A stretch of 64,000 bases of DNA from Sphingomonas sediminicola (GTDB taxonomy: Bacteria; Pseudomonadota; Alphaproteobacteria; Sphingomonadales; Sphingomonadaceae). Shown in pieces: positions 1 through 15,656 of this stretch. Under the pieces are notes generated by a model, which had not been told where the DNA came from, ran no database searches, and saw only the letters and a program-made list of their open reading frames with translations. Made by a program: the position numbers and the translations under genes. The stretch covers positions 248,001-312,000 of the forward strand of contig NZ_CP060782.1 in NCBI RefSeq assembly GCF_014489515.1, in the 5' to 3' direction. Each line of letters starts with the position of its first letter. Positions within the stretch are counted from its first letter, which is position 1.

Positions 1-258
1 CGGATTCTTCAGCACCTGCTCGAACTCTCGGCTCTGCTTGGCCTCAAGCTTCTTTCGATAGCGCTCGGCGTACGGATCGTGCGCGATGGTGATCGACCCG
101 GGCGGGAAGCTGCCGAACAATGAGTTCTGCCTGGCCAGCTCCTCGGCTGTCACGCGGCCTGCTTTCAGGTCAGCTTCGTCCTGATCGCGAGCTGCCTGCT
201 TGGCCTTACGGTGCTCGACGGGATCGAAGGTGCCCGGCTTGTTCGTTCGCTTAGGCAA
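1..258 (-). CDS. Hypothetical protein downstream of integrase (partial)
   Basis: An open frame of 86 codons runs off the left edge. It would start at a TTG whose codon overlaps the last bases of the integrase gene (the integrase stop is at 251-253), so translation could be coupled. The product is hydrophilic and charged, starts LPKRTNKPGTFDP and is rich in Lys, Glu, Arg and Gln, suggesting a small helical protein. I do not recognise the family. The tight overlap and lack of stops support a real gene co-transcribed with the integrase, but the TTG start is a guess and the C-terminus is missing. Confidence 0.5.
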   Translation of the reverse strand, partial: MPKRTNKPGTFDPVEHRKAKQAARDQDEADLKAGRVTAEELARQNSLFGSFPPGSITIAHDPYAERYRKKLEAKQSREFEQVLKNP

Positions 259-1327
259 GATCAGGGTCGATATCGCTGAAGCGGTTTATGACGCGCAGCA
301 GAGTGACGTCCGCCAGACCTTCCTGAGCAACGGCTTCGGTATACGTCGCAACCTCTTGGTCGCCCTTCCAGCCACCGACGGCCTTCAGCTCCTGATTGGT
401 TCCCCCCGCCATAGCTGCACGAACGGCGCCTACTTTGCGAAGCCCATGGGCAGTGCAGTGAGTCAAGCCAGCTTCGTTACAGCGATCCCGGAACCAGTTA
501 CCCACGCCAGCGGCAGTGAACGGCTTGCCGAACTCATTCACCAGGAAGGTTGTTAACCCAACGGAGGGCATCGCATCGATCGCGCGCTTCAGATCGGGCG
601 CGATGGGAAGCCAGAGGTCAGCATCGTTCTTGCTGGCCCGGTAGTTGATCTTGCCGCGGACGATATGCCTCGGGCCGAACAACCGCGCGTCACCGCGTCG
701 CTGCCAGGTCCACAAAACGATTTCGAGAAAAAGCCGTGCCTTCGTGCCGAGCGGATGCCGCTTCTTGAATGCAACGATTTCTTCCTCAGTCCACGTGTGA
801 TAGCCGTTGATCTTCGCTTTGCCGACGCGCTTCGCCTTCTTCACAGGGTTCGACGCGATCCACTCCAGCTTCTCCGCATAGTTGAAGAGCCGAACGAGCT
901 GCTTGCGCAGATTCACGGCCGCGACGGCACCACCGACCTCTCGTCCCTTGCCGTTCTCCCGCTTCTTCGAACGAGCGAGCAGGATGGCCTCGATGTGCTG
1001 GAATTTGAAATCCTCGACGAGGTCGTTGCCGAATTCTTCCCGAAAACTCTCGATAAGGCCACGCCGGCGGCGCTTGTTGTCAGCTCCACCCGAATCTTCG
1101 AAGTCCGCCGACTTGTAGTAGCGAGCACAAAGGTCGTGCACGCTACGCGGCGGCCATCGGGGCTCGAGGTCCTGTCCGCCTAGCAGTGCCTGGTATTCAG
1201 CATCGAAGCCCGGCTGATCCGGCAGGTGCTTCATGTAAACGGGCTTCTGGCCAGTCTTCCGAAAGCGAGCGCGAAGCTTCTTGTGCCTGTCGGGGCTGAC
1301 GGTGACGTTCTTGTAGCGGGTCTTCAT
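251..1327 (-). CDS. Phage-type tyrosine recombinase/integrase
   Basis: This 358-residue protein should catalyse site-specific integration and excision of the element. The C-terminal catalytic domain shows the family signature: a first Arg in the WTWQRRGDARL segment near residue 210, then H294-G-L-R297, W320 in GGWKG, and the nucleophile Y329 in VATYTEAV. The N-terminal third, with an RxRxR-rich start and a SAM-like core-binding segment, fits arm- and core-binding domains. Length and motif spacing are normal for phage and ICE integrases. The gene starts 6 bases after a DUF2384 gene and its stop overlaps the next frame, so it sits in a minus-strand operon that begins at the rep gene or earlier. 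No adjacent tRNA target is visible. Confidence 0.93.
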   Translation of the reverse strand: MKTRYKNVTVSPDRHKKLRARFRKTGQKPVYMKHLPDQPGFDAEYQALLGGQDLEPRWPPRSVHDLCARYYKSADFEDSGGADNKRRRRGLIESFREEFGNDLVEDFKFQHIEAILLARSKKRENGKGREVGGAVAAVNLRKQLVRLFNYAEKLEWIASNPVKKAKRVGKAKINGYHTWTEEEIVAFKKRHPLGTKARLFLEIVLWTWQRRGDARLFGPRHIVRGKINYRASKNDADLWLPIAPDLKRAIDAMPSVGLTTFLVNEFGKPFTAAGVGNWFRDRCNEAGLTHCTAHGLRKVGAVRAAMAGGTNQELKAVGGWKGDQEVATYTEAVAQEGLADVTLLRVINRFSDIDPDLA

Positions 1328-1333
1328 CGAGGA

Positions 1334-1612
1334 TCACCAACCGTTATAGGCCCAGTATTCCGCATGCTGGCACACGGTCTGAGCTTCTTCAGGATTTGAG
1401 GAAAGAAGCATGTCGAGGCCGGTTCGGCCGTCGAACGCCTTGTTCGAAGCTCGAAGCCAACAGGCTGCTCTAGAGGCCGGAAGGATGCCCATAAGGGCTC
1501 GTGCCAGCCGCACGAGATGCGACTGACGCTCCAGATCAACCAACCGCGCGCGAACGTCCGCTGAGAGCCCCAACGCGTCCGCGGCGGTGTTGAAGGCTTG
1601 AGGAGTGGTCAT
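1334..1612 (-). CDS. DUF2384 (Xre/MbcA/ParS toxin-binding) domain protein
   Basis: This 92-residue protein matches the toxin-binding C-terminal domain of Xre/MbcA/ParS antitoxins. It has the ALMG...A-CWLRASNKAFDGRTGLDMLL pattern, in which a Trp-Leu is followed by N, F-x-G and a leucine-rich helix. Known members pair with RES-domain toxins that degrade NAD, and usually have an N-terminal helix-turn-helix. Here the region before the domain is only about 35 residues and shows no clear DNA-binding helix pair, and no RES toxin lies on either side. It sits 6 bases upstream of the integrase, so it may regulate or partner the recombinase. The family assignment is by recognition; the role is inference. 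Confidence 0.7.
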   Translation of the reverse strand: MTTPQAFNTAADALGLSADVRARLVDLERQSHLVRLARALMGILPASRAACWLRASNKAFDGRTGLDMLLSSNPEEAQTVCQHAEYWAYNGW

Positions 1613-1615
1613 CGA

Positions 1616-1795
1616 TCAAAGCACCCTGTCCAGAGGGTTTGCACGGACGACGGGAAGCGGTGCTCCATCGCTGAACTCGAACACGACATTGCCGTTCGCT
1701 TCAATGGTCACGCGAGCAGGGCTGAAGCCGGCTTTCTTGCAGCCCTTGAGTGCGCGAGCGATGTCCTCCTGACGGATGCGAGCGGGAGCGGTCAT
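1616..1795 (-). CDS. Small hypothetical protein (59 aa)
   Basis: A 59-residue frame starts at ATG 1795 with MTAPARIRQEDIARALKG and ends just before the DUF2384 gene. The first half is a basic amphipathic helix (RIRQEDIARALKGCKKAGF); the second half reads VTIEANGNVVFEFSDG, a short beta pattern. Similar short proteins of the form IRQADIARALKAAKAAGF are common in alphaproteobacterial prophages and integrated elements next to integrase and Rep genes, but their function is unknown to me. The start codon overlaps the end of the rep gene (last base 1795), which supports coupled expression. It may be a DNA-binding accessory protein such as an excisionase, but I see no direct proof. Confidence 0.65.
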   Translation of the reverse strand: MTAPARIRQEDIARALKGCKKAGFSPARVTIEANGNVVFEFSDGAPLPVVRANPLDRVL

Positions 1796-3263
1796 CAGGC
1801 CGCCTCCAACATGATCGGAATCGGCTCAGAAAGACGCTCGAACACCTTCCGGTGACGAGCGCCATATCGCGCGTATCCCTCAACGTGATCGCCCAGCCTA
1901 TCCAGGATCCAGCCGTCCTCTAGAGCGACGTCGAGGATAGAGCGTCCGTGCGCAGCGCGAACAAACAGATCGTCCATGTAACCACTGCCGAGCACCGAGA
2001 GACTGAAGAGATCGAATTCGACTACGTGAGAAATCGGATCCTTCTTCTCAACTTCGATCTTGGCCTGAGCCATCGTCATCGGAAGCTCGCCGTCGGCGAT
2101 CTGCTCATCCGTGAGCTCCTCGCCGATATCGAAGCGCTCGCGGAGACCTTCGACGTAGCCGTCCTTAGTTTTATGGCCCGGCGTCCAATACATCCGCCGC
2201 TTGCGCCACGTCCCGCGACCATAATCGAGCACCAGCTCGCGCGCCCGCTCTACAGAGAGTATGGGAAGGCCCGCGGCCTTTTGTTCCTCGGGGAAGGCCC
2301 CGAACCATCGGCAATCTCGAGAATATCCCAAAACGTGCGTGACTTCTTCCGACCCATCTTCGCGGTCGACTTCGTCATTTCAGCGGACGCTTCCCAACGG
2401 TTCTTCCCATTAGCCTCGAGTTGAGCTGCGCGGTCAGGACACTTCGCCAGATAATCATTGGCCGACCACACGATGCTCACATCGATGCCATGTTCCCGGT
2501 CAGGTGCACGATCTTCGCCAAACACCTTCTTCGCTGCCGCTTCCCACTGAGGAAAAACCTTATCGGCAATCAGCTTCTCGAGGGTCGGGCCATCCATGTT
2601 TTGACTATCGACTCCCGCCAACACCGGATCGAGAATCCACAGCTCATGATTATGCGGGTGCCAGCCATTCCAACCGTGTGTAATCTCAGTCGAGCGAACC
2701 AGCCCTTGGAAGCCGAGCGACTTGCGAAAACGTTGGTAGCCTCCGCGCTGCCGCATCGTGCGCAAGGCACCGGAGAGCCCATCCATAGACTCGCGACACG
2801 TCTCAGCGATCGTATGCGGAAAGGTGTGGGTGATCATCACAACCAGATGGCCACGAGCCCTTGCAGTCTCGATCAAACGTTTGACTTCGTCGCCGCGAAC
2901 GCGCTCGATCTTCTGAGCGCATTCTCCGCAGAGCCAAACGCTCCCGCAACGCATAACGCCCTTCCAGACTACCGATCCGGATACGCGCTGCATTGCAACC
3001 AGAGTTGTCGCCTGGCGGTGACAGCACTGGCCACACGCCACGACAGGAAACCATTTGCCGGCGTCATCACCAGCTTCCTCGCGCTCCTCATCGGTGCGGG
3101 GAGCTTGTCCCTTATACTGCTTCATCGCCATGCGGCGGAGCTTGACGGGACGTTTGGCAACACTGTCCCTTCTTTCTACCAAGGCGGCTTCGCCGCTGGA
3201 TAGTAAGGCTTCGGGCGTTGCGCCGGACCCTGCATTGCTCACCGGTCCAGACTTTCCAGCCAC
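1795..3263 (-). CDS. Rolling-circle replication initiator Rep (one frameshift)
   Basis: Rep proteins of this type nick the plasmid double-strand origin and start rolling-circle replication. The N-terminal part has a zinc-type cysteine set (CGQCC near residue 77, then CGECA), the metal-binding HUH motif HPHNHELWIL near residue 200, and the tyrosine region WSANDYLAK. The frame shifts near 2300. The C-terminal part continues in the next frame with EELTDEQIADGE, the usual tail of the family. Restoring one base joins them into a protein of about 490 residues. The upstream bound at 3263 is a GTG; the better start is the GTG at 3242, which overlaps the stop of a small cysteine-rich gene. An integrated plasmid replicon is the simplest reading. 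Confidence 0.75.
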
Positions 3264-3379
3264 CGGTAGAAGCAGTCATCGCAGACGAGCGTACGAGCGC
3301 TGCACCTTATTACGGACAGAACGAAGAGATTGCCTGCGACGTGGCGAATCTCGCGGTGGATAGCATTATGCGGACACAT
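3239..3379 (-). CDS. Small cysteine/histidine-rich protein upstream of rep (46 aa)
   Basis: A 46-codon frame starts at ATG 3379 (MCPHNAIHREIRHVAGN) and ends with a TGA that overlaps a GTG start for rep. It carries C2-P-H4, a later single Cys, and CDDC near residue 35, a spacing that could bind one zinc ion. Its overlap with the rep start suggests translational coupling, a common way to limit Rep synthesis. I do not recognise a family, and with this length the frame could still be chance. Support comes from the cysteine pattern, the overlap and its position between two other minus-strand genes. Confidence 0.4.
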   Translation of the reverse strand: MCPHNAIHREIRHVAGNLFVLSVIRCSARTLVCDDCFYRWLESLDR

Positions 3380-3483
3380 GTGGCCGCTCCCCCTGGATTG
3401 GGGCAGCTTGGCTCAGCCTTGTGATCTCAGTCGGCTCGCGATAGGTTTCTTCTTGCACAAAGAGAGCGCGAGCTTTCTTGAGA

Positions 3484-3510
3484 CCCGGCAGCCTGGCTGC
3501 CGGGTTTTTT
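3484..3510 (+). terminator. Rho-independent terminator
   Basis: An 8-bp perfect stem CCCGGCAG/CTGCCGGG with a 5-base loop is followed by six T residues on the plus strand. On the minus strand the hairpin is not followed by a T run, so it acts on plus-strand transcripts. No plus-strand gene lies upstream, which suggests a short plus-strand RNA running against the rep leader (see findings). It also overlaps the end of the minus-strand gene at 3509. Confidence 0.8.
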
Positions 3511-3721
3511 AGTTGCAGCCGATCGACGCGAGCGCGGCGCGCTTCGTCGGACAAGCGCGGACGATCTGTCCCGTGTGGTCGACGATCACTGCGCCACCGT
3601 TGGTGGCGCCCACCCCGGTAATGATGAAGACGCCCTTCGACCTAACGAAATACGTAGGAACGACGTCCCGGTGTTCGCAAACGCTCTCAAAGGCGCGCAA
3701 AATAGACGGAAGAGAAGACAT
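3509..3721 (-). CDS. Small hypothetical protein (70 aa)
   Basis: The start at ATG 3721 (MSSLPSILRAFESVCEHRD) is chosen because a strong Shine-Dalgarno GGAGG sits 8 bases upstream; an 18-codon upstream extension lacks one. The product alternates beta-like strands (VVPTYFVR, GVFIITGVG, GGAVIVDHTGQIV) and ends in a short Lys/Arg stretch, suggesting a small beta-rich fold. I do not recognise the family. It is first in the minus-strand run leading to rep and has a perfect inverted repeat 63 bases upstream, so it may be a regulator or copy-control protein, but that is inference. Confidence 0.65.
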   Translation of the reverse strand: MSSLPSILRAFESVCEHRDVVPTYFVRSKGVFIITGVGATNGGAVIVDHTGQIVRACPTKRAALASIGCN

Positions 3722-3783
3722 GAAGTGGCCTCCGGTAAGAGAGCGACCACTTCTCCATTTTGGACCGTGGGCCATTCCGGCAA

Positions 3784-3798
3784 CCGGTTAAGAACCGG
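3784..3798. promoter_or_regulatory. Inverted repeat, candidate operator
   Basis: CCGGTT-AAG-AACCGG is a perfect 6-bp inverted repeat with a 3-base spacer. It lies in the 184-base AT-richer gap between the MobA/L-like gene and the 70-aa gene, upstream of the latter, where a promoter for the rep-int run would be. Dyad length and spacing suit a small dimeric repressor. Nothing identifies the binder. Confidence 0.4.
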
Positions 3799-3905
3799 CA
3801 GCGACTTCTGTCTGAAACTAAATGTAATCGTCGATGAGTAGTTGGCAATAGAAAAGTAGGAAAAAGCTTTTGACTTTACTAAAGCCTACGCGTTCGATCA
3901 GGTCG

Positions 3906-4562
3906 TCAGGCATCCCCGCAGGCCCATTCGACCCATGCCTGTCGGAGGCAACCGTTCAAGCGACGGTAGAGCGGGTATGAGACACCTGCGTAGGTCCTCC
4001 GCCCGAAATATCGAGAGCTTATTAGGATGTGTACATGCGGCGGACGGCCGGCGCGCGGGATGTGGCCAGCGATCTCGGCTACAATGCCGGCGGGGAGGAC
4101 CGATCGCACAAGATCTACAACCTGATCCATCCACTCGCCGCGGGAGAGACCGGGTCTCAAGTCACCACAAACGTGCCACGCTCTCACTCCATGGAGATCA
4201 CCAGAAGCCTCAATCGCCTCGTCAGCGAGCTGCCATCTTAGGAATGGACGATGAACCCATTCCGGCGCCTCGTCGGGCACGATGCTGGTGAGCATGAAGA
4301 GATCCTCGGCCCGGGAGGAGAAATCATGGATCGTGACGTCTCCCTTGGTGAAGCGTGTACGACGAATGTAAGCAGCCTCACGCAGGGCCGTTCTAAGCTC
4401 ATTTACAGGATGACCTTGCTTAGGATGTGTCACGACCGGCAGGCATCTGAATGGAAGGCGTTCCATAGGCATTAGGCGGCCCGCCTGTTCAGCGTGAACA
4501 TGAGCGGGCTTCATCGTCAGCGCGCAAGGGACGATCGCGGGATAGAGCGCGTAATCATTCAT
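3906..4562 (-). CDS. MobA/MobL-type relaxase domain protein (small)
   Basis: Proteins of the MobA/MobL (MOBQ) family nick oriT to start conjugative transfer. This 218-residue protein shows the family layout in short form: an AAY tyrosine segment (NELRTALREAAYIRR), an aspartate/histidine region (TIHDFSSRAED), IVPDEAPEWVHRPFLRWQLADEAIEAS, and the HUH metal site PHVHILISSR near residue 180. It stops soon after the HUH motif, so the helicase or coiled-coil tail of full MobA is absent; such stand-alone forms occur in sphingomonad elements. Start is uncertain (ATG 4562, or internal ATGs at the MKPAHVH or MPMERLP segments). It lies divergent from the MobV gene across a 350-base non-coding stretch. 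Confidence 0.7.
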   Translation of the reverse strand: MNDYALYPAIVPCALTMKPAHVHAEQAGRLMPMERLPFRCLPVVTHPKQGHPVNELRTALREAAYIRRTRFTKGDVTIHDFSSRAEDLFMLTSIVPDEAPEWVHRPFLRWQLADEAIEASGDLHGVRAWHVCGDLRPGLSRGEWMDQVVDLVRSVLPAGIVAEIAGHIPRAGRPPHVHILISSRYFGRRTYAGVSYPLYRRLNGCLRQAWVEWACGDA

Positions 4563-4914
4563 CTTGGAGATCTTCCAGGCTGGAGAGGGACGAACAGCCG
4601 TCCTCTTTCATCGGGCCTGAGGGCCAACCTGGCCTCCCATTTAGTCCCTTCGCCATCGCGCCTTGCGCGTCGGAGGCGTCAACGAGGCAAAAACATCTCT
4701 GACCCACGCGGAAATCCCTGGAGGATTTAGGTGGACGCCGAACGGACGCCGAAGCGAGTTAGGTGAAGTATTCCGCGTAGGTTTATTTCGCGAAGCGAAA
4801 AAACCTTTCCCGGGTGAGATGTTTTTGTACTTCGTTCAATAAACATTTATTTTTGTTTGACTGTCTTAAAGTCGCTGACGACTTCCCGCTATCATAGTTC
4901 TCACGGAGGAATTT
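4563..4914. other. Non-coding stretch between two mobilization genes
   Basis: I see no supported gene in these 352 bases. They hold a 10-bp direct repeat GGACGCCGAA at 4733-4742 and 4744-4753 (11-base period), an imperfect hairpin at 4780-4805 (GGTTT-ATTTCGC against GCGAAAAAACC, one bulged base), an AT-rich tract at about 4840-4860, and a short inverted repeat at 4869-4884 just before the MobV gene. This is the expected place for an oriT and for a divergent promoter. A Shine-Dalgarno GGAGGA for the MobV gene is at 4905-4910. Confidence 0.55.
4869..4884. repeat. Inverted repeat upstream of MobV gene, candidate oriT
   Basis: AAGTCG-CTGA-CGACTT is a perfect 6-bp inverted repeat with a 4-base loop, 30 bases before the start of the MobV relaxase gene. 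MobV enzymes such as MobM of pMV158 act on an inverted repeat located directly upstream of their own gene, so position and symmetry fit an oriT. No nick-site consensus could be matched by eye. Confidence 0.4.
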
Positions 4915-6445
4915 ATGGGTAGCTTTAATCGAAAGCGGGTGAACGACGAAGACGAGATCCTGCCGATCGGCAGGCGCAAACTGCGCCCTGAGCCCAAGCC
5001 TGAGCGAAAGGGATATGTTGGCAGGTTTCCGGCCCAAGCGGACGGTCGGCCAGCATTGGGCTTTGCTACGCTAAGTCACAATAATCTGAAAACTTGGACT
5101 CAGGTGGCCAGGGCGCAAGGGCACAACACTCGCAAAATCGAAGCGCCGAATGCGCGAAAGGATGCTCCGGAGCCAATCGAGCTTCTTGCGAGTGCGACGG
5201 GCTCTTACGTCGATCGGGTTAAAGGCGTGCTGCAAGATCACAAGGTGGCGACGAAGGTGCGTAGGAACGCCGGCGCTATTGCCTCTGAGGACGTCTACTC
5301 GGCTTCACCCGAATATTGGAACCGAGCCGGTGATTGGAAATCTAAGCCAACATCCGAAATCCTGGCTGACCCCGTAGTCCAAGCTGCACTGGCTCTCGCG
5401 CGGAAAAAGCACGGCAAGCGACTGATCTCGGTAACACTGCATTTGGACGAGGAGAGCCCGCACGTTCATGTCGTAGCCGTGCCCCTCGTTCAGCGGGAAC
5501 ATGCGGTGCGAGGCCGCCTCCCGAAGCATTGTGCCCGGGATGAAGCCGGCAAGCCGATCGACGTGCGTCCTAAGGTACTAAAGTGGTCGCTCGACCCGTC
5601 CTCAATTCGCGGTCGATCGAAGCAGCTCGAGGCCAATCACGACGAGTGGGCCGCTGCATGTGAGAAGCTCGGCCTAGTTCGGGGCTCAAGGGTTCGGAGA
5701 TGAGCGAGGGGAGAGGAGAGCTAGACGCAATCGGCAGACCGGGCGCGCAAGTATGGCCGAAAAAAGCGCTAGAGAGCGGCGGGAGAGCTTAGGTGCTGAA
5801 GCTGAAGCCGACCGCGAACGCGCAAGGAGACTTGTCGAGGAAGCCACAGAGAAGGAAGCCGCGGCTGAGACCGCAAAGGCTGAAGCTGAGCTATTGAAGC
5901 TATCGCAAGAAGGACGCGAACGTGAGCTTCTGGACCTAATCGGCGTTGCCGAGACGGAGAGGGTCGCAGCCGCCGCCGAACGGAAGAAGGCCGCAGAGCG
6001 CACCCAACGGCTATCTCAACAGATTGAAGTGCTGGCAATGGTACTTGATCCCAGTGCGCCGATGGAAGCAGTCGTCCAGAAGGGTCAATTGTTGGTGCGG
6101 GGCAGCACTCCCGAGGAGCTCGCACTGCTGCATAGCCTTCCTCCAGCTCTCAATGGTTCCGTCGATAGGTTCTTTCGCCTTGCGGCTTCGATATCGGATC
6201 AGGTGGCCGAGCTGAATAGCGGACGCGCGCAGCTCGAGCGGGACCGTGCTCAGCTAAAGGCGGACCAAGAGCTCTATGAGAAGGCGTCCGACGCGATCAT
6301 GAACAATCTGGACCGCGCGCGGGAGTTTCTCGCCGCATGGACTGGACTCCCCGAGCAAGCGAGAACGCCTGACGTAAATGCGGCCATGCAAGCCGGCTAT
6401 GCGCTGGTACAGCAACGAGGAGCTAAGGCAGCGGTTGGCCGCTAA
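4915..6445 (+). CDS. MobV-family relaxase (Pre/Mob), two frameshifts
   Basis: MobV relaxases nick plasmid DNA at oriT for mobilization. The N-terminal domain has HNTRK near residue 75 (the HNxR motif I) and the metal-binding motif HLDEESPHVHVVAVP near residue 180, diagnostic for MobV. The frame breaks near 5681 in a G run: restoring one base gives LGLVRGLKGS, the conserved end of the relaxase domain. It breaks again near 5765 in a run of six A; restoring one base joins it to a long Glu/Ala/Arg-rich coiled coil (about residues 285-360) and a helical tail. The repaired protein has about 510 residues, the normal size. Start ATG 4915 has a good Shine-Dalgarno (GGAGGA). Confidence 0.85.
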
Positions 6446-6515
6446 TACGCGCTGAAAGCGCGGAGATGAACAGAGATTCGATGGACTAGGAGGGCTGAGC
6501 AGTTATTCTCGCGGC

Positions 6516-9500
6516 ATGCCTCTCTTTAATCCGAAGATCATTCAATCCGTTCTCAGTGGCGTAAGCGAGTTGCAGTCGCCGGCGGTGCTAGAAGCTGCCG
6601 CGGAATGGGCAAAGCGAGCGGCTGACCCCGCAATTGATCTCCAGAATGAGAGCCAGCTCGAACAAGAATTCAATCGCATAATCGTACAAGGAGTCCTGCA
6701 GTACTCAGCTCCTGCGCCTGGGCAGGTTGGTACGATGCGGGTTAAACAGCCTGTTCCAGGAGGGACCACTGTCGACCTAGCCCTGGGGCATTTCTCAGAT
6801 GGCGATTCGGCCATCCTTGCGCCGTTTGAGCTGAAGGGCCCCAAAGTTGCCCTCGATCGCATTATGGCGAGCCGCCAGAAGACGCCGGTTCAGCAGGCTT
6901 GGGACTATGCGATGGATGCTCCAGGGGCGCGCTGGGTCGTCATTAGCAATATGAAGGAACTACGGCTCTATGCCGTCGGCTACGGCCGGCAGGATTATGA
7001 GTTGTTCGATCTGAGACGGATCGACCAGCCGGAGGAGCTTTCGCGCCTGCTCCTGCTGCTGCATGTCGAACGACTGCTGACCGGCGCGACTGCTGACCTG
7101 CTGTCCCGAAGCGCCATGGCAGACCGGGACGTCACCAATCAGCTTTACCAAGACTACAGGGCACTGCGGGATGACCTGCTGGCGTTTGTCGGAGATCAGC
7201 GACCGACGATCAACGTCGAAGACAGGATTCGGATTGTTCAGACACTTCTAGATCGGCTGCTGTTCATCGCATTTGCTGAGGACAAGTTTCTTCTGCCTCC
7301 GCAAAGTCTCCAGGACGCGGTGCAGACCACGAACAGGTATAATCCTCAGCCGAAGTGGGACCAGCTCCGGACGCTGTTTCAGTGGGTGGATGAGGGGCAC
7401 CACCTCACAATATTCCTCGGTACAATGGCGGCCTATTCGCGCACGACCCAATTATCGAGGACCTCAATCTGCCAGATGCGCTGGTCGAAAGTTTCGGACG
7501 CCTCGGAAACTACGATTTTGCCAGCGACGTCTCCGTAAACATCCTCGGGCACATTTTCGAACAATCGATCACCGATATAGAAAATCAGAAGGCGGCCGCA
7601 GGGATCGAGGCCCCGCCGCCCGCATCAAAGAAGAAGCGTGAAGGCGTCGTCTATACGCCCGACTTCATCACGCGGTTCATCGTTGAGCAGACGATCGGCA
7701 AGCATCTGCAGGAGATTGCTGACGAGTTGCTGCCCCAGTTCGGTAAGGCTCTGCCAGATGGCGAGGTTCGCTGGAAAAACAGCAGAACGGCAGAAGCCGA
7801 TTACTGGTCCGCATACCTCGATCGGCTCACGAGCCTCCGGATTCTCGATCCCGCGTGCGGTTCGGGTGCCTTCCTCATCGCCGCATTCAATTATCTCAAC
7901 GCGGAACAGAAGCGTGTGCGTGATCGGCTCAGCGAGCTGACCCCGGGCATCCTCGCTCTCAGTGCTCCGAATGCTGATGTCGAGATCATCACCAACAATC
8001 TTTTCGGCGTGGATGTGAACGCGGAGTCCGTCGAAATCACGAAGCTGGCACTCTGGCTGCAAACTGCGAAGCGAGAACGGGCGTTGGAGAGCTTGAATGG
8101 GAACATCAAGCACGGAAACAGCCTCGTCGAAAGCACCCACTTCCACCCACGGCCATTCAATTGGGCTTCTGAGTTCCGGGATATCTTAGGCGCCGGCGGG
8201 TTCGACATCGTGCTTGGCAACCCACCCTACGTTCGAATGGAATTGCTCAAGCCCATAAAGCCACACCTCGAGGCGCGGTTTAGTGTCGCAACCGACCGGG
8301 CCGATCTGTATGCGTACTTCTTCGAACTCGGCGTCAAGCTACTGAAGGAAGGCGGCCGCCTCGGGTTCATCTCCTCGTCGACCTTCTTCCGAACCGGGTC
8401 AGGCAAGTTGTTGCGGGCATTCTTGGCCGAGAGCAGCAATATCGAAACCGTCGTCGATTTCGGCGATCTGCAAGTTTTCGAAGGCGTTACGACGTACCCT
8501 GCAATCATCACGCTTCGGAAACGACGGCCGCACGAAGATGACAATCTCCGTTATCTAACAGTGCGTTCCATGCCAGGGGATTTAGCCAAGACCTTCGAGG
8601 AAGAGGCGAAGCCGATGCCTTGCAGCCGGCTAACCGCCGGCACGTGGCGGTTCGAAAGTGACCTGCTTGAAGAAATTCGGATCAAGATAGCGTCCGGGCG
8701 TGCTACTCTCGCGGATACTTTTGGACCGCCCCTGTACGGCATCAAAACAGGTCTGAACGACGCCTTCATTCTTAGCCGTGAGCAGCGCGACCAGATCGTC
8801 GAGCGAGCCGCGAACACTGGTGACCGTTCCGCGGACCTATTGAAGCCATTTCTCGTCGGCGAAAATCTCAAGCGTTGGCATGTGGAGAGCAATGACCTCT
8901 GGCTGATCTACACGCCCAGGAACATGATCGACATCGATGATTATCCGGCGGTGCGCGACCATCTATTGCCGTTTCGCGATCGCCTCGAGAGGCGAGCTAC
9001 GAGCCAGAACTGGTGGGAGTTGCAGCAGGCGCAGGCCGCGTATGAGCCTGCGTTTCTCGGTACGAAGGTGATCTACCCCCATTTCAACGATCGTCCGAAT
9101 TTCTCGTTTGATACCAGTAGGTTTTACTCGAACGACAAATCGTATGTGATTCCCGCGTCATCTTCGGCGCTCGCGGGATTTCTTAATTCCAAACTTTCAT
9201 GGTTCCAGCTTTGCGGCCTGGCACCCGCCGTACGGGCGGGTTCCGCGAAGCGCGCGTCCAATTCGTAGGCGCACTAGCCGTTCCACCGGCTGATCTCCTT
9301 GAACGGGAGCTCAGTAGTCCGTCGGCGGAAGCGATGCGTGCCGGCGAAGAATTAGAGTCACTGATCAAAGCTACATTGCGCAGGCTCGGCGATATTGACG
9401 CTCGAATAACGGCCAGTTCTTTATTCAAGGCTTGGCCTTCGATGACGTTTGCCGATCTCCAGGCCGCGCTAAACAAGCGCCTAAAGGTGACCATCCCCGT

Positions 9501-9753
9501 GGCTGAGCGAGACGAGTGGGAGACGTGGTTCGATCACAAGCGCGCTGAGGCTGCGAAGCTCGCGGCTGAGATCGTGTCCGCAGAGGTGGAGATCAACGAC
9601 CGTGTTTACCGCATGTTCGGATTAACTCGCACCGAGATCGATGCACTCGAAGACGCGCTCGCCATCCTGGCGCCTGCACTCAACGTGAAAGGTTACGAGG
9701 CCATCAGTGCAGTTGAGGGCTCCAATTATCGGGTGAAGCACGTGAGCGCTTAG
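6516..9753 (+). CDS. Type IIG restriction-modification enzyme, two frameshifts
   Basis: Type IIG enzymes join a DNA methyltransferase and an endonuclease in one chain and cut unmodified foreign DNA. The N-terminal part has a PD-(D/E)xK-like site (VDLAL...LAPFELKGP near residue 105). The methyltransferase domain has motif I LDPACGSGAF and the catalytic NPPYVRME of N6-adenine enzymes, as in the Eco57I group. The C-terminal part (residues about 600-1079) looks like a target-recognition region. The frame is lost near 7402 (DEGHPPHNIPRYNGGLFAHDP after repair) and near 9234 (LAPAVRGGFREARVQFV after repair); each needs one restored base, giving about 1079 residues. A Fic gene follows 47 bases downstream. 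Confidence 0.85.
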
Positions 9754-9800
9754 AGCGACACAGTTCCAGCCGGTCGCAAGCCCACGCAGCGTAGCCCCAA

Positions 9801-10499
9801 ATGATCGGCGATCGGTATGAGGCGGTAGACGATCCCGCCTGCTATCCCGGCAGCGATGTTCTAATCAACATTCCGGACCTGAAGGACGCAGGGGAGTTAG
9901 AACAGTTCGAGGTTGAGCATGTCGGAATGCGCAGCGTCGAAGGACCACCTGAGGGAAACTACGACACTGCCCACTATCGAGCCCTGCATCGGTACCTATT
10001 CCAAGACGTATACGAGTGGGCTGGAGAATATAGGACCATCCGAACGAGCAAGGGCGGAAATCTGTTTTGCTTGCCGGAATTTATCTCCAGCCAGATGGAG
10101 GCTCTGTTCAAGGGCCTACAGTCGCCTCCGTTCCTCGCTGGGTCGGATCCTGACGACTTCATCGTCGTGGCCGCTGAGTTTCTCGGAGATGTGAATCACA
10201 TACACCCATTCCGCGAAGGGAATGGCAGGACCCAGCTTATTTTCCTGCGGATGCTCGGGCTGCGGGCCGAACATCCGTTTCGTCCGGAAAGCGTCGAGCC
10301 TGAGGCGTTCCTGCGCGCAATGATCGAAAGTTTTCATGGGCACTTGGATGCGCTCGTCGACGAGCTCGAGCGAATGAGGCTTAGGTCCCTGTCGGGCCTT
10401 CGTTATGCAAGCATAATTGGACTAGTTATGCTTGCACTTCGACGCGGGCATTATATTGAATGCAAGCATAATCTGAAAAGGATGCTTGCATGGAAGTAG
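9801..10499 (+). CDS. Fic/DOC-family protein with altered Fic motif
   Basis: Fic proteins transfer AMP or related groups from nucleotides to target proteins and often act as toxins. The signature reads H135-P-F-R-E-G-N-G-R143-T-Q-L146, where the last position of HxFx(D/E)GNGRxxR is normally Arg; that Arg contacts phosphate. A second Arg follows four residues later (IFLR). The flap (ISSQMEALFKGLQ) and the N-terminal ALHRYLFQDVYEWAGEYRTIR segment are typical. No inhibitory (S/T)xxxE(G/N) helix or separate antitoxin gene is visible. The last 40 codons run through a palindrome cluster; a one-base loss near 10375 would restore an earlier stop at 10382, so the true C-terminus may be near residue 193. 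Confidence 0.85.
   Translation: MIGDRYEAVDDPACYPGSDVLINIPDLKDAGELEQFEVEHVGMRSVEGPPEGNYDTAHYRALHRYLFQDVYEWAGEYRTIRTSKGGNLFCLPEFISSQMEALFKGLQSPPFLAGSDPDDFIVVAAEFLGDVNHIHPFREGNGRTQLIFLRMLGLRAEHPFRPESVEPEAFLRAMIESFHGHLDALVDELERMRLRSLSGLRYASIIGLVMLALRRGHYIECKHNLKRMLAWK
10403..10492. promoter_or_regulatory. Cluster of four palindromic sites, candidate operator of the P63C gene
   Basis: Four copies of a TTATGC-AA/TT-GCATAA dyad occur in 90 bases: 10403-10416 (full palindrome TTATGCAAGCATAA), 10426-10436 (TTATGCTTGCA), 10459-10472 (AATGCAAGCATAAT) and 10481-10492 (GATGCTTGCATG). The last overlaps the ATG start of the P63C gene. The sites alternate in orientation. Repeated dyads over a promoter and start codon are the mark of a tightly repressed gene. 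The binder is unknown; Fic, the P63C protein or an absent antitoxin are candidates. Confidence 0.6.
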
Positions 10500-11502
10500 A
10501 TTCTGGGAAAGCCAAGGGGGTTTCGCCCGTGCTGAAGCTCTGACTCCAGAGGAACGAAAAGCCATAGCTAAGCGAGCCGCTGAGGCTCGATGGAGCGGCG
10601 AAAGCCCTGGCCACGCGTACCCAAAGGCAACGCACAGAGGCGTTCTCACAATTGCAGATGTCGAGCTGCCTTGTTTCGTTCTGGACGACGGTCGCCGGGT
10701 GATCTCAGGACGCGGCATGACGGCCGCCATCGGCATGAAGGGGCGCGGTCAAGGCGCACAGCGGATTGTTGAACATCGGACCATAAGAGCATTTCTCGAC
10801 AACGATCTGGCCAATGCAATTTCTGAGCCGATCTTGTTCACGGGCGCGTCTCCCAGAGGCAACGCACCGAGCTCGGGCTTTGAGGCAGTTGTTCTGCAGG
10901 AATTGTGTGAATCGCTGTTGGAAGCCCGCGACGCTGGCGCGCTTCAGACGGAGCAGGAGAGGCGATACGCTCAGTTCGCTGACATGCTCATCCGATCGTT
11001 CGCGCGGGTCGGAATTATCGCTCTGGTCGACGAGGCAACTGGGTATCAGCGCGATCGCGCGAAAGATGCGCTCGCGAGAATCCTTGAAGACTTTATCGCC
11101 AAGGAGCTCCGCCCGTGGGTCCACACCTTCCCGGATGACTTTTATTCTGAACTATTTCGTCTGAGAGGGCTGGAATTTCCCCGCGATAATGTGAAGCGGC
11201 CGCAATACTTCGGTCATCTTACGAACGACATTGTTTATCGGCGCCTGGCGCCTGGCGTGTTGGATGAATTGAGGCGGCAGACCCCACGCCGACCCGATGG
11301 CCGCTTCAAGCACCAACTATTTCGAAGGCTGACCGATGAGCTGGGCCATCCCAAGCTGCGAGAACATTTGGCCTCCGTGATCGCGCTGATGAAAGTCAGC
11401 CGCACTTACAGGCAGTTCCAAGACTTTTTAGATCGGGTCCATCCTCGTTACGGTGAGACTCCCATGCTGCCGTTCTTGGACGAACCGATAACTGGGCTGT
11501 AG
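10490..11502 (+). CDS. P63C-domain protein, one frameshift
   Basis: The body carries the P63C domain, named from phage and prophage proteins and recognisable by IALVDEATGYQRDRAKDAL near residue 185 and LRGLEFPRDNVKRPQYFGHLTNDIVYRRLAPGVLDELRR. Its biochemical role is not known. The normal N-terminus of the family (GGxARAxxLTPEERxxIAxxAAxARW) is split: the ATG at 10490 gives MEVDSGKAKG, and the rest, GFARAEALTPEERKAIAKRAAEARW, is one base out of frame after a G run near 10517. Restoring one G gives a 338-residue protein. Start ATG 10490 sits inside the last palindrome of the upstream cluster, so repressor binding could block initiation directly. Confidence 0.8.
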
Positions 11503-11518
11503 TGGTCGCCCTATTGCG

Positions 11519-11541
11519 GGCCACGCTTTCGGCGCGTGGCC
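11519..11541. terminator. Hairpin between convergent genes
   Basis: GGCCACGC-TTTCGGC-GCGTGGCC forms an 8-bp GC-rich stem with a 7-base loop, 16 bases after the P63C stop and 13 bases before the end of the convergent minus-strand gene. It lacks a T run on either strand, so it may be a weak or Rho-assisted bidirectional terminator. Confidence 0.4.
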
Positions 11542-11554
11542 TGCAACGTTTCCA

Positions 11555-12055
11555 TCAAAGTTGCAGAGAAAGCTGCCAGTTCATGGACCTGGCCCGAGAA
11601 ATGATTTCGGGCACAGAAGTAAGCAGGAGCTCGCCCGAAATCTTGTTGAATAGGGCCACTCGGTGTCGTGGGCCCAACTGATCCGCGGCGGCAATCTCGC
11701 CTTCTGTAAGCGCGAAGAAGAACCCTGTGAATCCCGGCCCGACCCGCGGCTGATTTGCCGTCTTGATCTCAATGAATGTGATCTCGGGCAGATGGTTGCG
11801 CAGTTGGTCTCGATCCGAGAAATCGAACGGCGCGGGAAGTGCGAGTGCGTCGAAGCTTGAAGCCTTTATTAGGATGCCTTCCGCAGCAAGCTCGTCGAGG
11901 AGGATGCGAAGCGGACGCCCCTTCGGGCGAGCAATCCATTTGTCTTGCGTCGCTAGTGCAGCCTGTTCGCCGTGAGATCCTCTCTCATTGGCCAGTCGCG
12001 CCACATGGGCACGTTTCGCAGCGATGACTTCAACGGGGGTGTGCAATAGCTTCAT
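11555..12055 (-). CDS. Hypothetical protein with nuclease-like E-x-K motif
   Basis: The 166-residue product is not a family I can name. Its centre reads LPEITFIEIKTANQPRVGPGFTGFFFALTEGEIAAADQLGPRHRVALFN, which resembles the PD-(D/E)xK fold: a strand with E-I-K, then a helix and a strand ending HRVALFN, as in DUF3883-type proteins attached to restriction systems. The N-terminal half is helical and basic (VIAAKRAHVARLANERG). It follows the TPM lipoprotein gene with a 26-base overlap and sits convergent to the P63C gene, next to a restriction enzyme and Fic. A nuclease or DNA-end-binding role in defence is possible but unproven. Confidence 0.55.
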   Translation of the reverse strand: MKLLHTPVEVIAAKRAHVARLANERGSHGEQAALATQDKWIARPKGRPLRILLDELAAEGILIKASSFDALALPAPFDFSDRDQLRNHLPEITFIEIKTANQPRVGPGFTGFFFALTEGEIAAADQLGPRHRVALFNKISGELLLTSVPEIISRARSMNWQLSLQL

Positions 12056-12581
12056 TGGGGTGCCTACTGAGTTGAGCTACGATGGCATCGGCTCCCGCGA
12101 CGATGCCGGCGCTTATCTCTCCCTTACGAAACCTTGGCAGCATCACTCCTTCGATCACCTGCTTGGCCGCTCGATCGGGGAAAGCGGTGGCGAGGCCGTC
12201 CCCGGTTGCGATACGCACTTCGCGCTCTGTCGGCGCGACAAGAAGGATTGTGCCATCATTGTAGCCCTTCCTGCCGATCCTCCACGTGTTGCCCAAATCT
12301 CGCGTGTAAGTTGCAGCGTCGCGCCCTCTGAGCGACCTCACGGTCACAATCACAAATTGGCGGCCAGTTTGCGCTTCAAGAGCTTGTGACCTTGCTGCCA
12401 GATCGAGTTCCTGGTCTGGCCTGAGCAGTTGAGCTTCGTCGACGACCCGGCCAGTTAGCTGGGGGAAATTTGTTGCGGTCGCCGGCGTTGCGAGAGCGGT
12501 GGACTTCTTTTGGTTCTCGCCATCACACGCCGATAGAGCCACCAGTGCTGCGATCGAAGCGAATAAAATTGGCTTGGGCAT
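12030..12581 (-). CDS. TPM-domain lipoprotein
   Basis: The start ATG 12581 gives a lipoprotein signal peptide, MPKPILFASIAALVALSAC, with lipobox LSAC; longer starts would bury it. The mature part is a TPM domain (about residues 45-165): VVDEAQLLRPDQELDLAARSQALEAQTGRQFVIVTVRSL, then GYNDGTILLVAPTEREVRIATGDGL and a C-terminal helix. TPM domains occur in thylakoid Psb32, in phosphatase-like and photosystem-repair proteins, and in envelope proteins of unclear role. The domain normally precedes a transmembrane or Gly-rich tail, absent here. Anchored on the periplasmic face of a membrane, function unknown. The gene overlaps the next minus-strand gene by 26 bases. It may be cargo of the element or the first chromosomal gene. 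Confidence 0.8.
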   Translation of the reverse strand: MPKPILFASIAALVALSACDGENQKKSTALATPATATNFPQLTGRVVDEAQLLRPDQELDLAARSQALEAQTGRQFVIVTVRSLRGRDAATYTRDLGNTWRIGRKGYNDGTILLVAPTEREVRIATGDGLATAFPDRAAKQVIEGVMLPRFRKGEISAGIVAGADAIVAQLSRHPNEAIAHPR

Positions 12582-12803
12582 CGCCTGGATGCTGATGTGC
12601 GAAATGCCGAGCGTCAATCTGAGGGCCACGTCAGCTGGGAGCCATTTTCTCGAAGGAGGTTCGCCGGAGCGCGTGGGACGCCGAATCCCGGGGCCCATCA
12701 GTTAGACAAAACGAGTAGGACGTGAGGGGGCTTCTCGGTTGCGATTTGGGTGGTTAGACAAGCTAATGACTTGTAATTCGGGATTGTTGTTACCCCGTTG
12801 GGG

Positions 12804-14032
12804 TCACCAGATCAGCGTCAGCACAAATCCAATGCTGATGGCGAGGGCGACCATGCTCGCGCCGAGCGCGATAGCTGCTGAGCGGCCTTCGCTCCGAGCA
12901 TAGGCCAGCGTAATCCCGAGCTTCACGGCCATGTTGGCGAGCACCGTTCCAGCCAGCGCCGTTGCTGCGAAAAGCGCGCCGATCATCTCCGGCGGAATTC
13001 CACCCGCCGTCACGATCGCGACGTCCACATCCATCGTTCCGATGATCAGGAGGAGTGCTGCGATGCCTTCCTGCCCGAAGCGCCCCTGGGCCCAGGCGCC
13101 TGCAACTGCGGCGATAGCTACGAAGAGCAGGAACGCGAGGGCCGGGAGCAAAGCGATCGGGTTGCCTGGCGGCGAAGGACCTTCGCACCGCGGCGCCTTG
13201 CGATAGAGCCACCAGCCGGCCGCACTTGCAACGACGAATGCGGGTGCGACAATCATCGCGAACGGAAGCACCAATCGCGTCGCGAGCAAGGAGATAAGGA
13301 CGATGATCCGCACGTACATGATCGCTGTTGCGAGAGCGATTCCAGCCGGTTCGGCTCCGCCCCCTTGCCCGAACCAAGGCGCTGAGCGAGCGACTGCGTT
13401 ACTGCCGTGGAGCTGTAGAGGCCGCCGATGATGGCGGTGGCAATGGTCCCATGCCGCGAGCCGAAAATGCGGTTTGTGACATAACCGAGGAAGGAGAAGC
13501 CGGTAACGAGGACGACCACGAGCCACAGCTTCTGCGGATTCCACGCGCCGTATGGGCCGTAATTGCCGCTCGGCAGGAATGGCAGGACTGCTCCTGCGAT
13601 CACCGCAAAGCGTGCGAGTGCCTTCACGTCCTCCTCGTCGAGCTTGCCGATCAGACTGTGCACTTCCTCTTTCAGTGCGAGGATGAGCGTCACCAGAGTG
13701 GCGCCGACTATGGCCAGTGCCGGGTCGCCGCTTCCCGCGAGGAAGCCGAGGCCGACGGTCGTGATTCCGGCGATCGGGGTGGTCGCGTCCGTTCGCTTAT
13801 CCAGGTCAGGCCGGTGGGCGTAGCCGATGGTCAGGATGGCTACGGCACTTGCGACGAGGCCTCCCGCGGCGACCGAATGGCCCATGCCGCCAATCAGGCC
13901 CGCTATACCTGAGACCAGGCCGAGCAGGGTGAAGGTGCGGATGCCGGCGACCCGCGTCCCTTCGCCCACGCGCCGGAGATTGAAACCTCGTTCGATTCCG
14001 ATCAGCAGGCCGCACGTAATCGCGGTGCCCAC
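12804..14032 (-). CDS. MgtC/SapB-DUF4010 family membrane protein, one frameshift
   Basis: An MgtC-like N-terminal half (GTAITCGLLIGIERGFN, then GIRTFTLLGLVSGIAGLIGG) is followed by a DUF4010 half with about six membrane segments; total around 12 segments. The family sits in the inner membrane and its transported substrate or regulatory role is unknown. The frame breaks near 13365 in a C run: the segment before it ends SLAQRLGSGKGAEP and the one after continues GIALATAIMYVRIIVLISLLATRLV in the adjacent frame; one restored base joins them. The start is uncertain: GTG 14032 is the first visible start, but the family pattern (NGNFYGAALAVGTAI) extends upstream toward the fghA stop. Last gene of the formaldehyde operon. 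Confidence 0.75.
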
Positions 14033-14061: not shown

Positions 14062-14906
14062 TCAGCGCAGTCGCTCCGAATGCCAGCGCAGGTGGTCGGC
14101 CATGAAGGTCGAGATGAAGTAATAGCTGTGGTCGTAGCCATCGCGCAGGTGGAGCTCCAGCGGGATGCCCGCGTCGGCGCAGGCCTTTTCCAGCAACTCC
14201 GGCTTCAACTCCTTCTCCAGGAAATTGTCTGAAGTTCCGACGTCGACGAGCAGTCCGTCGATCCGAGCACCGTCTTCAATCAGTGCGACGGCATCATGTT
14301 TTCGCCAGACGGCGTGATCGTCCCCGAGATAGCCGCCTAGTGCTTTCTGACCCCACGGCACCTGGCTCGGCGCCACAATGGGGCGAAAGCCGACACGCTG
14401 CGGAAGCGGCCTGGATTGCCCAGCGCGACCGTCAATGCCCCGTGGCCGCCCATCGAATGGCCGGTGATGCCCTGCCTGCTCATGTCGACCGGAAACTCGG
14501 ATGCGACCAGGGCAGGCAATTCCTCGATGAGGTACGACCACATCTGATAATTGCGGGCGAAAGGCTCCTGTGTCGCATCGACGTAGAAACCCGCGCCGAG
14601 GCCAAAGTCGTAGGCGCCAGCTGGATCGTCCGGCACGCCTTCGCCGCGAGGGCTCGTGTCTGGAGCGACGAGTATAAGGCCATGCTCAGCGCAGGCGGCG
14701 CGATACTCGCCTTTCTCGGTCACGTTTGCGTGCGTGCACGTCAGGCCTGACAGGTACCAGACGATCGGCAGTTTCCCGCCGCTTTCGGCCTGTGGCGGCA
14801 GGAAGATCGAGAAGGTCATCTCCGTGCCGGTCGCGGCGGACGCATGTTTCACGACGAGCTGCCGCCCGCCGTGCGACCGGTTTTCGCTGAGGACCTCCAA
14901 ACTCAC
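14062..14906 (-). CDS. fghA: S-formylglutathione hydrolase, one frameshift
   Basis: The enzyme hydrolyses S-formylglutathione to formate and glutathione, the second step of glutathione-dependent formaldehyde oxidation in the cytoplasm. It is an alpha/beta hydrolase with nucleophile motif GHSMGGHGAL near residue 150, LPIVWYLSGLTCTHANVTEKG near residue 45, and the C-terminal acid and histidine in DVGTSDNF and DGYDHSYYF. The frame breaks in a G run near 14382 (SAFAPIVAPSQVPWGQKALGGYLG after one base is restored), giving about 281 residues, the usual size. Start GTG 14906 overlaps the stop of the VOC gene. Its operon with frmA fixes the role. Confidence 0.88.
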
Positions 14907-15289
14907 TTGTCGGCCGGTATCCGGTAGAAGCCGCAGAGCTTGTTGCCGTCCGGATCGCGCAGGTAGGCGAGGTACATCTTGCCGAAGCCAGCGTCTCGGA
15001 TGCCAGGAGGGTCCTCGCAAGACTTGCCGCCGTTGGCCAGGCCGGCCGCGTGCCAGGCATCGACCTGTTCGGGACTTTCGGCGCGGAAGCCAATCGTCGA
15101 ACCATTGCCGACGCTGCAGGGCTCGCCGTTCAACGGCTGCCCGACGCCGAGCGCGCCTTCGCGGGTCATCCACCAGTCCGACTTGCCGAAATCCTGCCCT
15201 GGTTTGTGGCCCAGCGCACCCAAGGTCGCGTCGTAGAATTTCTTCGACCGTTCGCGGTCGCTGCATCCCAGCATCACGTGGCTGAACAT
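14903..15289 (-). CDS. VOC-superfamily (glyoxalase-like) protein
   Basis: This 128-residue protein has the paired beta-alpha-beta-beta-beta modules of the vicinal oxygen chelate fold: MFSHVMLGCSDRERSKKFYDATLGALG at the start and AYLRDPDGNKLCGFYR at the end, where metal ligands usually sit in the first-strand His and last-module Glu. The terminal module here has Asn-Lys-Leu in place of the common N-x-x-E, so a metal role is uncertain. Placed between cupin and fghA, with its stop overlapping the fghA start, it belongs to the formaldehyde operon and may handle glutathione adducts, but substrate is unknown. Confidence 0.85.
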   Translation of the reverse strand: MFSHVMLGCSDRERSKKFYDATLGALGHKPGQDFGKSDWWMTREGALGVGQPLNGEPCSVGNGSTIGFRAESPEQVDAWHAAGLANGGKSCEDPPGIRDAGFGKMYLAYLRDPDGNKLCGFYRIPADK

Positions 15290-15300
15290 ATTCCCTCTCC

Positions 15301-15656
15301 CTAGATCTCGACAGCTTTGGTGGCGGTCGCTTCGTCACCCGTATTGGGCATGTCCCGCGGATCGATCAGCAGCAGCTTGGTCTCGCCGCCGCGTGACACC
15401 GGCCGATGCTCCGTGCCCCGCGGAACGACGAACAGCTCGCCCGGGTGCAGATGCACCGTGCGGTCGCGAAGCTCGATGTCGAGCGCGCCCTCGATCACAA
15501 GAAACAGCTCGTCGGTGTCGTCATGGCTATGCCAGATGAATTCGCCTTCGACCTTCACTAGACGAATCTCATTGTCATTGTAGCGCGCGACGATCCGCGG
15601 CGCCCAATGATCGGAGAAGCTCGCCAGCTTCTCGGCGAGGTTCACCTTGTCGCTCA

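Follow-up and report, generated by a model that had tools for sequence, protein, structure and literature searches.

A conserved array of operator-like sites before P63C genes: probable autoregulation by P63C through a small N-terminal hairpin

Phage repressors of the lambda CI/Cro type possess multi-site operators, that is, operators made up of several sites which lie over the repressors' own promoters. P63C, a protein domain reportedly defined by Iyer and co-workers in 2002, is found recurrently in temperate phages and mobile elements, though without an assigned role. In those portions of the literature available to the search, no description was found of a P63C operator or of a DNA-binding role for the P63C N-terminus, and nothing was found there on the p63 protein of phage Mx8. 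The passages on P63C in two papers (PMC6536676 and PMC13414232) merely mention the domain by name. Considered here is an array of four short inverted sites at the start of one P63C gene. The same array is found ahead of related genes, in phages and plasmids as well as in bacteria, and this suggests that P63C shuts off its own gene. The array is taken to be a real and conserved operator that probably serves in autoregulation, its probable reader being a small hairpin at the N-terminus of P63C.

The term 'window' is used here to describe the whole stretch of Sphingomonas sediminicola DNA that was analysed, 64,000 nucleotides in length, with positions counted from its first nucleotide. The P63C gene is found within an element of approximately 13 kb which extends from the 3' end of a tRNA-Glu, just left of the window, to positions 12794-12809, where 16 bases of that end are repeated. 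The element, that is, comprises window positions 1-12809 plus about 245 bases to the left, with the 16-base repeat on both flanks. It is of lower G+C and carries integrase, Xre/ParS-type, Rep-like and Mob genes.

The array occupies the region 10403-10492. Its GCAAGC/GCTTGC cores begin at 10407 (+), 10430 (-), 10462 (+) and 10484 (-), for core-to-core spacings of 23/32/22. Site 1 (ATGCAAGCAT, 10405..10414, + strand) is upstream of the promoter, site 2 (ATGCTTGCAC, 10428..10437, - strand) overlaps the -35 position, site 3 (ATGCAAGCAT, 10460..10469, + strand) is at the expected transcription start, and site 4 (ATGCTTGCAT, 10482..10491, - strand) extends into the start codon. The original prediction described four dyads of the ATGC(AA/TT)GCAT type, and these are present at all of the coordinates that it gave. 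It also had site 4 containing the start codon. The site does reach an ATG, at 10490-10492, but as assembled that ATG opens a frame of 17 codons rather than that of P63C. As to the promoter, a -35-like hexamer, TTGCAC (10432..10437, + strand), is found inside site 2. This is a weak hexamer, with 3/6 matches, which was read from the sequence along with the geometry of relatives and was not among the output of a promoter scan of the window. The -10-like hexamer, TTGAAT (10456..10461, + strand; 4/6 matches), adjoins site 3 and is 18 bp from the -35-like hexamer.

Within the window TGCAAGCA/TGCTTGCA occurs six times, versus about 1.6 expected, with four of those occurrences in the cluster at the P63C start. 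By a crude Poisson calculation, four such sites within 100 bp are expected about 4e-9 times per window. With up to one mismatch, ATGCAAGCATAA is found at 6 places in the 2.76-Mb genome, 3 in the cluster and 3 elsewhere, and a reversed-pattern control likewise is found at 6 places. It is the clustering alone that is thus unusual, with single sites not rare. These nevertheless could be chance palindromes that have been overrun by the Fic frame, which does cover three of them, but that explanation has next to nothing left to it: The above expectation is minute and, as considered below, the array recurs before relatives, which refutes chance.

That Fic frame (9801..10499, + strand, with its stop at 10497-10499) had been described as running through the first three sites, as indeed it does, ending in the site-4 region. 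It was suggested as well that the real end of Fic is earlier, and this is probably so. After approximately position 10380 the frame has no counterpart in the relatives seen. Of 1330 plasmid records, the best 15 have matches that end at residue 180-192 of 232, and a relative that is 67% identical stops at about the position equivalent to residue 193.

The P63C gene frame (10486..11502, + strand) is 338 amino acids long as counted from a TTG. Its product is P63C by profile (PF10546; 109.8 versus a cut-off of 26.1 bits, residues 199-291, i.e., 11080..11358 on the + strand) and also matches PHROG 2384 (E 5.8e-108, residues 9-326). The N-terminal motif, QGGFARAEALTPEERKAIAKRAAEARW, is found at 10513..10593 (+ strand), as placed by alignment and by models of relatives, and is the proposed DNA-reading helical hairpin. 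The ATG equivalent to the start codon of relatives (10490..10492, + strand) is 6 nt downstream from where the site-4 core begins and is out of frame with P63C, the latter being in another register that is open from the TTG at 10486. The frame from that ATG resembles relatives for about 10 codons and then loses the P63C register, and relatives with an intact P63C gene exist. The register shift is possibly an assembly error. An esterase gene and an MgtC/DUF4010 gene, both outside of the element (12804-14032 and 14062-15338), are also split between reading frames, as seemingly is the type IIG gene (6516-9753). Given these other split genes, errors in sequencing or assembly are as likely as decay to account for the P63C frame break. 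Indel errors in the assembly are possible, and completeness is 90.6% in one contig.

Sources of P63C homologues were the host's own family, class and phylum, genome contigs, IMG/VR, and plasmids and phages, with six loci of the plasmid/phage set taken from the 56 matches listed. On the basis of upstream identity (>80%) and length of the upstream stretch (<130 bases), 303 P63C frames were reduced to 204. The non-redundant genes that were found via their protein number 138, consisting of 103 with the N-terminal motif, KGGxARA...ARW, and 35 without. The latter are a mixed group, with six possessing the second half of the motif (L175, L202, L214, L215, L217, L219) and with some cut or split frames. 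Upstream 'words' are instances of GCAAGC/GCTTGC in the 160 nt that precede the motif's GG. At least two such words precede 80 of the 103 genes with the motif versus none of the 35 without it (Fisher 1.3e-17, as calculated with kinship ignored). Of those 35, 30 have no word and 5 have one. In control stretches taken from within genes, at least two words are seen in 1/103. In a smaller protein-found set the equivalent counts are 66/81 with the motif and 1/22 without, the exception being a split gene (L139) whose front part, in another frame, bears both the motif and two words. This leaves 23 of the 103 N-motif genes lacking the array, five of which have a near-consensus motif (L034, L182, L189, L194, L218).

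The association holds too when starting with the array. In array-first scans of viral contigs, P63C adjoins in 120 of 140 stretches (108/120 plus 12/20, among the matches listed). In the remaining 20, the array is at the edge of the stretch in two (L250, L291) and is inside unrelated open frames in several. Over 385 genomes of the host's class, a related array pattern was found in 3: the window locus, a second P63C locus (L047, in genome G648), and genome G524, where the match sits inside an open frame of 145 codons. The array altogether is present in phage, plasmid and genome records of several phyla, with Pseudomonadota, Nitrospirota and Myxococcota MAGs and a Deinococcus plasmid among them, phyla being as labelled. 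Palindromes before other P63C genes, for which the original prediction proposed looking, therefore were both sought and found, and their recurrence backs its view that the cluster is genuinely regulatory, likely acting to repress P63C. Within 0.96 Mb of 146 array-bearing loci, no other close pairs of TGCAAGCA were found, which leaves the promoter of P63C itself as the sole local target observed. With the shorter GCAAGC 6-mers there are 59 close pairs elsewhere in those 0.96 Mb.

Site consensus, geometry, -10 position and ATG offsets were determined for a pooled set, in which the array-found loci contain the words by construction. The commonest orientation is + - + -, in 51 of 169 motif genes (array-found included), with spacings mostly of 22-24, 31-32 and 22-24. 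Among 43 arrays possessing the geometry of the window, a -10-like hexamer (at least 4/6 matches to TATAAT) adjoins site 3 in 40, versus 18/43 at site 1 and 8.5/43 in shuffled spacers. A TTGACA-like hexamer inside site 2, also with at least 4/6 matches, is seen in only 10/43, i.e., the -35 is weak. The first ATG is at a distance of 6-9 nt from the beginning of the site-4 core in 68 of 86 genes with at least four sites. By this geometry, site 2 lies over the -35 position, site 3 over the transcription start, and site 4 over the stretch leading to the start codon, which is the layout of a repressor. Operator-like sites, that is, are found over the gene's own promoter, as is looked for with an autoregulated repressor.

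Two explanations other than a protein-read operator bear on this geometry. Sites 1 and 2 are mutually complementary, as are sites 3 and 4, and site 4 reaches the ATG. The inverted sites in principle could instead be forming RNA hairpins, resulting in attenuation or in masking of the start codon. I consider that to be very improbable. The -10 adjoins site 3, which places sites 1 and 2 before the start of transcription and site 3 at that start; the 13 arrays of + - + + orientation have third and fourth sites which cannot pair; and one consensus (ATGCAAGCAT, over 514 sites) is seen at all four positions, though its GCAAGC core was preset by the search. Short sites that are repeated near one gene, including on small plasmids, might alternatively be serving as iterons or as a centromere-like locus, i.e., for element replication or partition. 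There is very little probability to this reading either, since the sites are constant in their placement relative to both the -10 and the start codon, and are found also in integrated elements and in phages of unrelated kinds.

The array appears to be associated with the N-terminus of P63C. On a tree of P63C bodies (FastTree; 134 bodies, as 4 of the 138 rows with short bodies were omitted), starred branches account for at least 12 changes of the N-motif. Over 12 independent pairs, the operator follows the motif in an average of 9.8, shows no difference in 2.1, and never does the opposite (p with a median of 0.002 and a range of 0.001-0.016). Operator and motif thus change together, with the operator tracking the N-terminal hairpin and not the body. 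For example, two proteins with bodies that are 84% and 87% identical to that of L233 (L023 and L083, respectively) lack the motif, and their genes have 0 and 0 words versus 5 for L233. Similarly, L040, which has a body identity to L038 within that same 84-87%, is without the motif and has 1 word versus 6. The front of L040 may be recombinant or miscut.

In three relatives the position of the motif is taken instead by a known DNA-binding domain: HTH_3 in L222 (1.9e-12), KilA-N in L087 (1.7e-20), and a YdaS/Cro-like HTH in L023 (1.3e-6; 28.5 bits versus a cut-off of 30). All three lack GCAAGC words over the 200 bases preceding the start. With HTH and KilA-N found in the place of the motif, the N-terminal slot of P63C is seen to be a slot for DNA-binding modules.

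Variation in the motif itself also is accompanied by variation in the repeats. Of the 23 N-motif genes with fewer than two GCAAGC words, five carry another 7-mer at least three times (0.3 expected), and all five depart from GGxARA. Among the 35 genes without the motif the equivalent number is 2 (0.6 expected), one being L202 with its half of a motif. These alternative repeats are found at a like place, e.g., TGCTAAC (L041, L043) and TGCTGGT (L140). Neither the array nor a 7-mer repeated three times is present in 18 of the 103 motif genes. A rule by which GGxARA would predict GCAAGC fails both ways. Some of the motifs in array-found genes lack the central arginine, e.g., GGVAAA, and no simple residue code is therefore established. 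As a separate matter, short proteins of about 75-110 amino acids, with the KGGxARA...ARW motif at their C-terminus, are found in many genomes. Seven of these were inspected (L025-L029, L031, L033), none with a GCAAGC word upstream, and a short frame with a C-terminal motif is found upstream of P63C in L047 and L078.

Genes adjoining P63C were considered as a set of 376 first-neighbour ORFs, taken from the window together with a non-redundant set of 202 P63C loci, out to 900 bases wherever the locus extends that far. The idea had been that Fic, the type IIG enzyme and P63C form a defence or toxin module. Across these loci, though, that idea gains no support, as no such adjacency is repeated: Among the 376 ORFs the window's own Fic, which appears there twice, is alone in matching the window's Fic (E <=1) or in having a Fic motif. 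For non-viral loci, 124 of the 164 listed neighbour ORFs entered family scans. With PADLOC no family matches more than two of those 124, and restriction or methylase genes are found singly. Leading among the 124 are IS1595 transposases (9). P63C genes without the N-motif often follow such an IS1595/ISXO2-like transposase (L083, L021, L017, L018), and in L083 and L021 the P63C start apparently overlaps the end of the frame before it, which gives P63C the look of an IS passenger gene, with no GCAAGC upstream. There is as well a recurrent cluster of 19 neighbours, 17 upstream of P63C and mostly on viral contigs, which by eye have the look of CI-type repressors. P63C may be part of an immunity region where that CI-like neighbour occurs. 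Beyond these two groups, the next largest neighbour cluster consists of 5 ORFs.

Such neighbours are pertinent to the possibility that the sites are bound by some other regulator, whether encoded by the host or by the element, with the N-motif merely co-inherited. Promoter and N-terminal codons are adjacent on the DNA, and recombination consequently could swap both without their being functionally coupled, an argument that extends to the tree result. The 23 N-motif genes without the array, along with the CI-like look of the cluster of 19, also are in keeping with a different reader. This explanation nevertheless seems unlikely. The array spans phage, plasmid and genome records of several phyla, no further large neighbour cluster is available to supply a regulator, the IS1595 transposases adjoin genes that lack the motif, and some motif variants come with different repeats. 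The reading preferred here continues to be that of P63C itself as the reader of its array.

As to the protein, an AlphaFold2 model of a relative (L036, from 69 rows; mean pLDDT 84) has a helical hairpin at residues 11-38 and a mixed domain over residues 44-145, together with a body made up of helices. When modelled alone, the hairpin has helices at 6-14 and 17-32. Structural searches with the hairpin alone gave one unrelated row and none by VIA, which with 37 residues is little informative. In appearance, the KGG...IA of the N-motif is similar to that of KGG repeat proteins (PF10685). Membership in that family was rejected, there being no profile match in three P63C relatives at E <=10, with the window protein scanned to 0.001. 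Nor was an HTH profile matched in L036, L012 or L041 at E <=10, or in the window protein at E <=0.001.

For the full model, the best fold match in BFVD is p63 of Myxococcus phage Mx8 (4.4e-11), followed at weaker E by many Bro-N proteins, the best named one at E 1.1e-2. By profile, the window protein matches only P63C at E <=0.001, and no Bro-N is found in three relatives at E <=10. The C-terminus of L036 matches the anti-repressor Ant family phrog_2899 (E 1.2e-8). The original prediction's statement that P63C proteins have no known function is fair for PHROG 2384, though there are this weakly Bro-N-like model and this anti-repressor-like C-terminus. The Bro-N-like domain could itself bind DNA. 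Among solved structures, matches by sequence are weak only (best 1pp7, E 0.026), and Foldseek with the full model versus the PDB gave no row at E <=0.001. Dachshund/Ski rows have a Z of about 5 over residues 44-145. The best structural row is DdrC, a DNA-binding damage-response protein of Deinococcus radiodurans (Z 6.9, 203 residues over positions 48-329 of the model, two domains). With an rmsd of 14.7 and a Z of less than 8, however, that likeness may be merely one of common arrangement.

A mechanism that would accommodate the above is as follows. Each site, as a 10-bp dyad, would be able to hold a symmetric pair of DNA-reading segments. P63C would bind these sites via its N-terminal helical hairpin, of about 30 residues (KGGxARA..LSxExR..IA..AA.ARW). 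Occupation of the array then would block P63C's own promoter, i.e., negative autoregulation. Such binding would probably be cooperative, as spacings are near 2 and 3 helical turns and the sites therefore are roughly on one face of the DNA. An array that serves as the autorepression operator of P63C, and which is read by P63C's own hairpin, I consider to be rather likely overall. A broader version, on which my belief is evenly divided, is that the hairpin represents a new kind of DNA-binding domain for dyads of the ATGC-NN-GCAT type, one which is exchanged with HTH or KilA-N upon one and the same P63C body and which carries its operator along, as a promoter plus N-terminus cassette, among the mobile elements of several phyla.

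An operator that is common to several phyla makes the regulation of P63C testable and should aid in both finding and annotating P63C genes. It points as well to a very small DNA-reading domain for which natural specificity variants exist.

In comparison with known systems, P63C proteins may be like the Bro-N/KilA-N/Ant viral regulators in fold, the model resembling Bro-N proteins at weak E, and are like them in the Ant C-terminus of L036 and in that a protein exists which combines KilA-N with P63C. They are unlike those regulators in lacking a Bro-N Pfam match and in having an extra N-terminal hairpin. From repressors of the lambda CI/Cro type, P63C differs in its proposed reader, which would be a two-helix hairpin of 30 residues, with no Pfam HTH match in three proteins. 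The likeness to the lambda type instead is one of operator architecture: With P63C too, short dyads spaced near whole helical turns are found across the -35, the -10 and the start of a gene that belongs to a mobile element.
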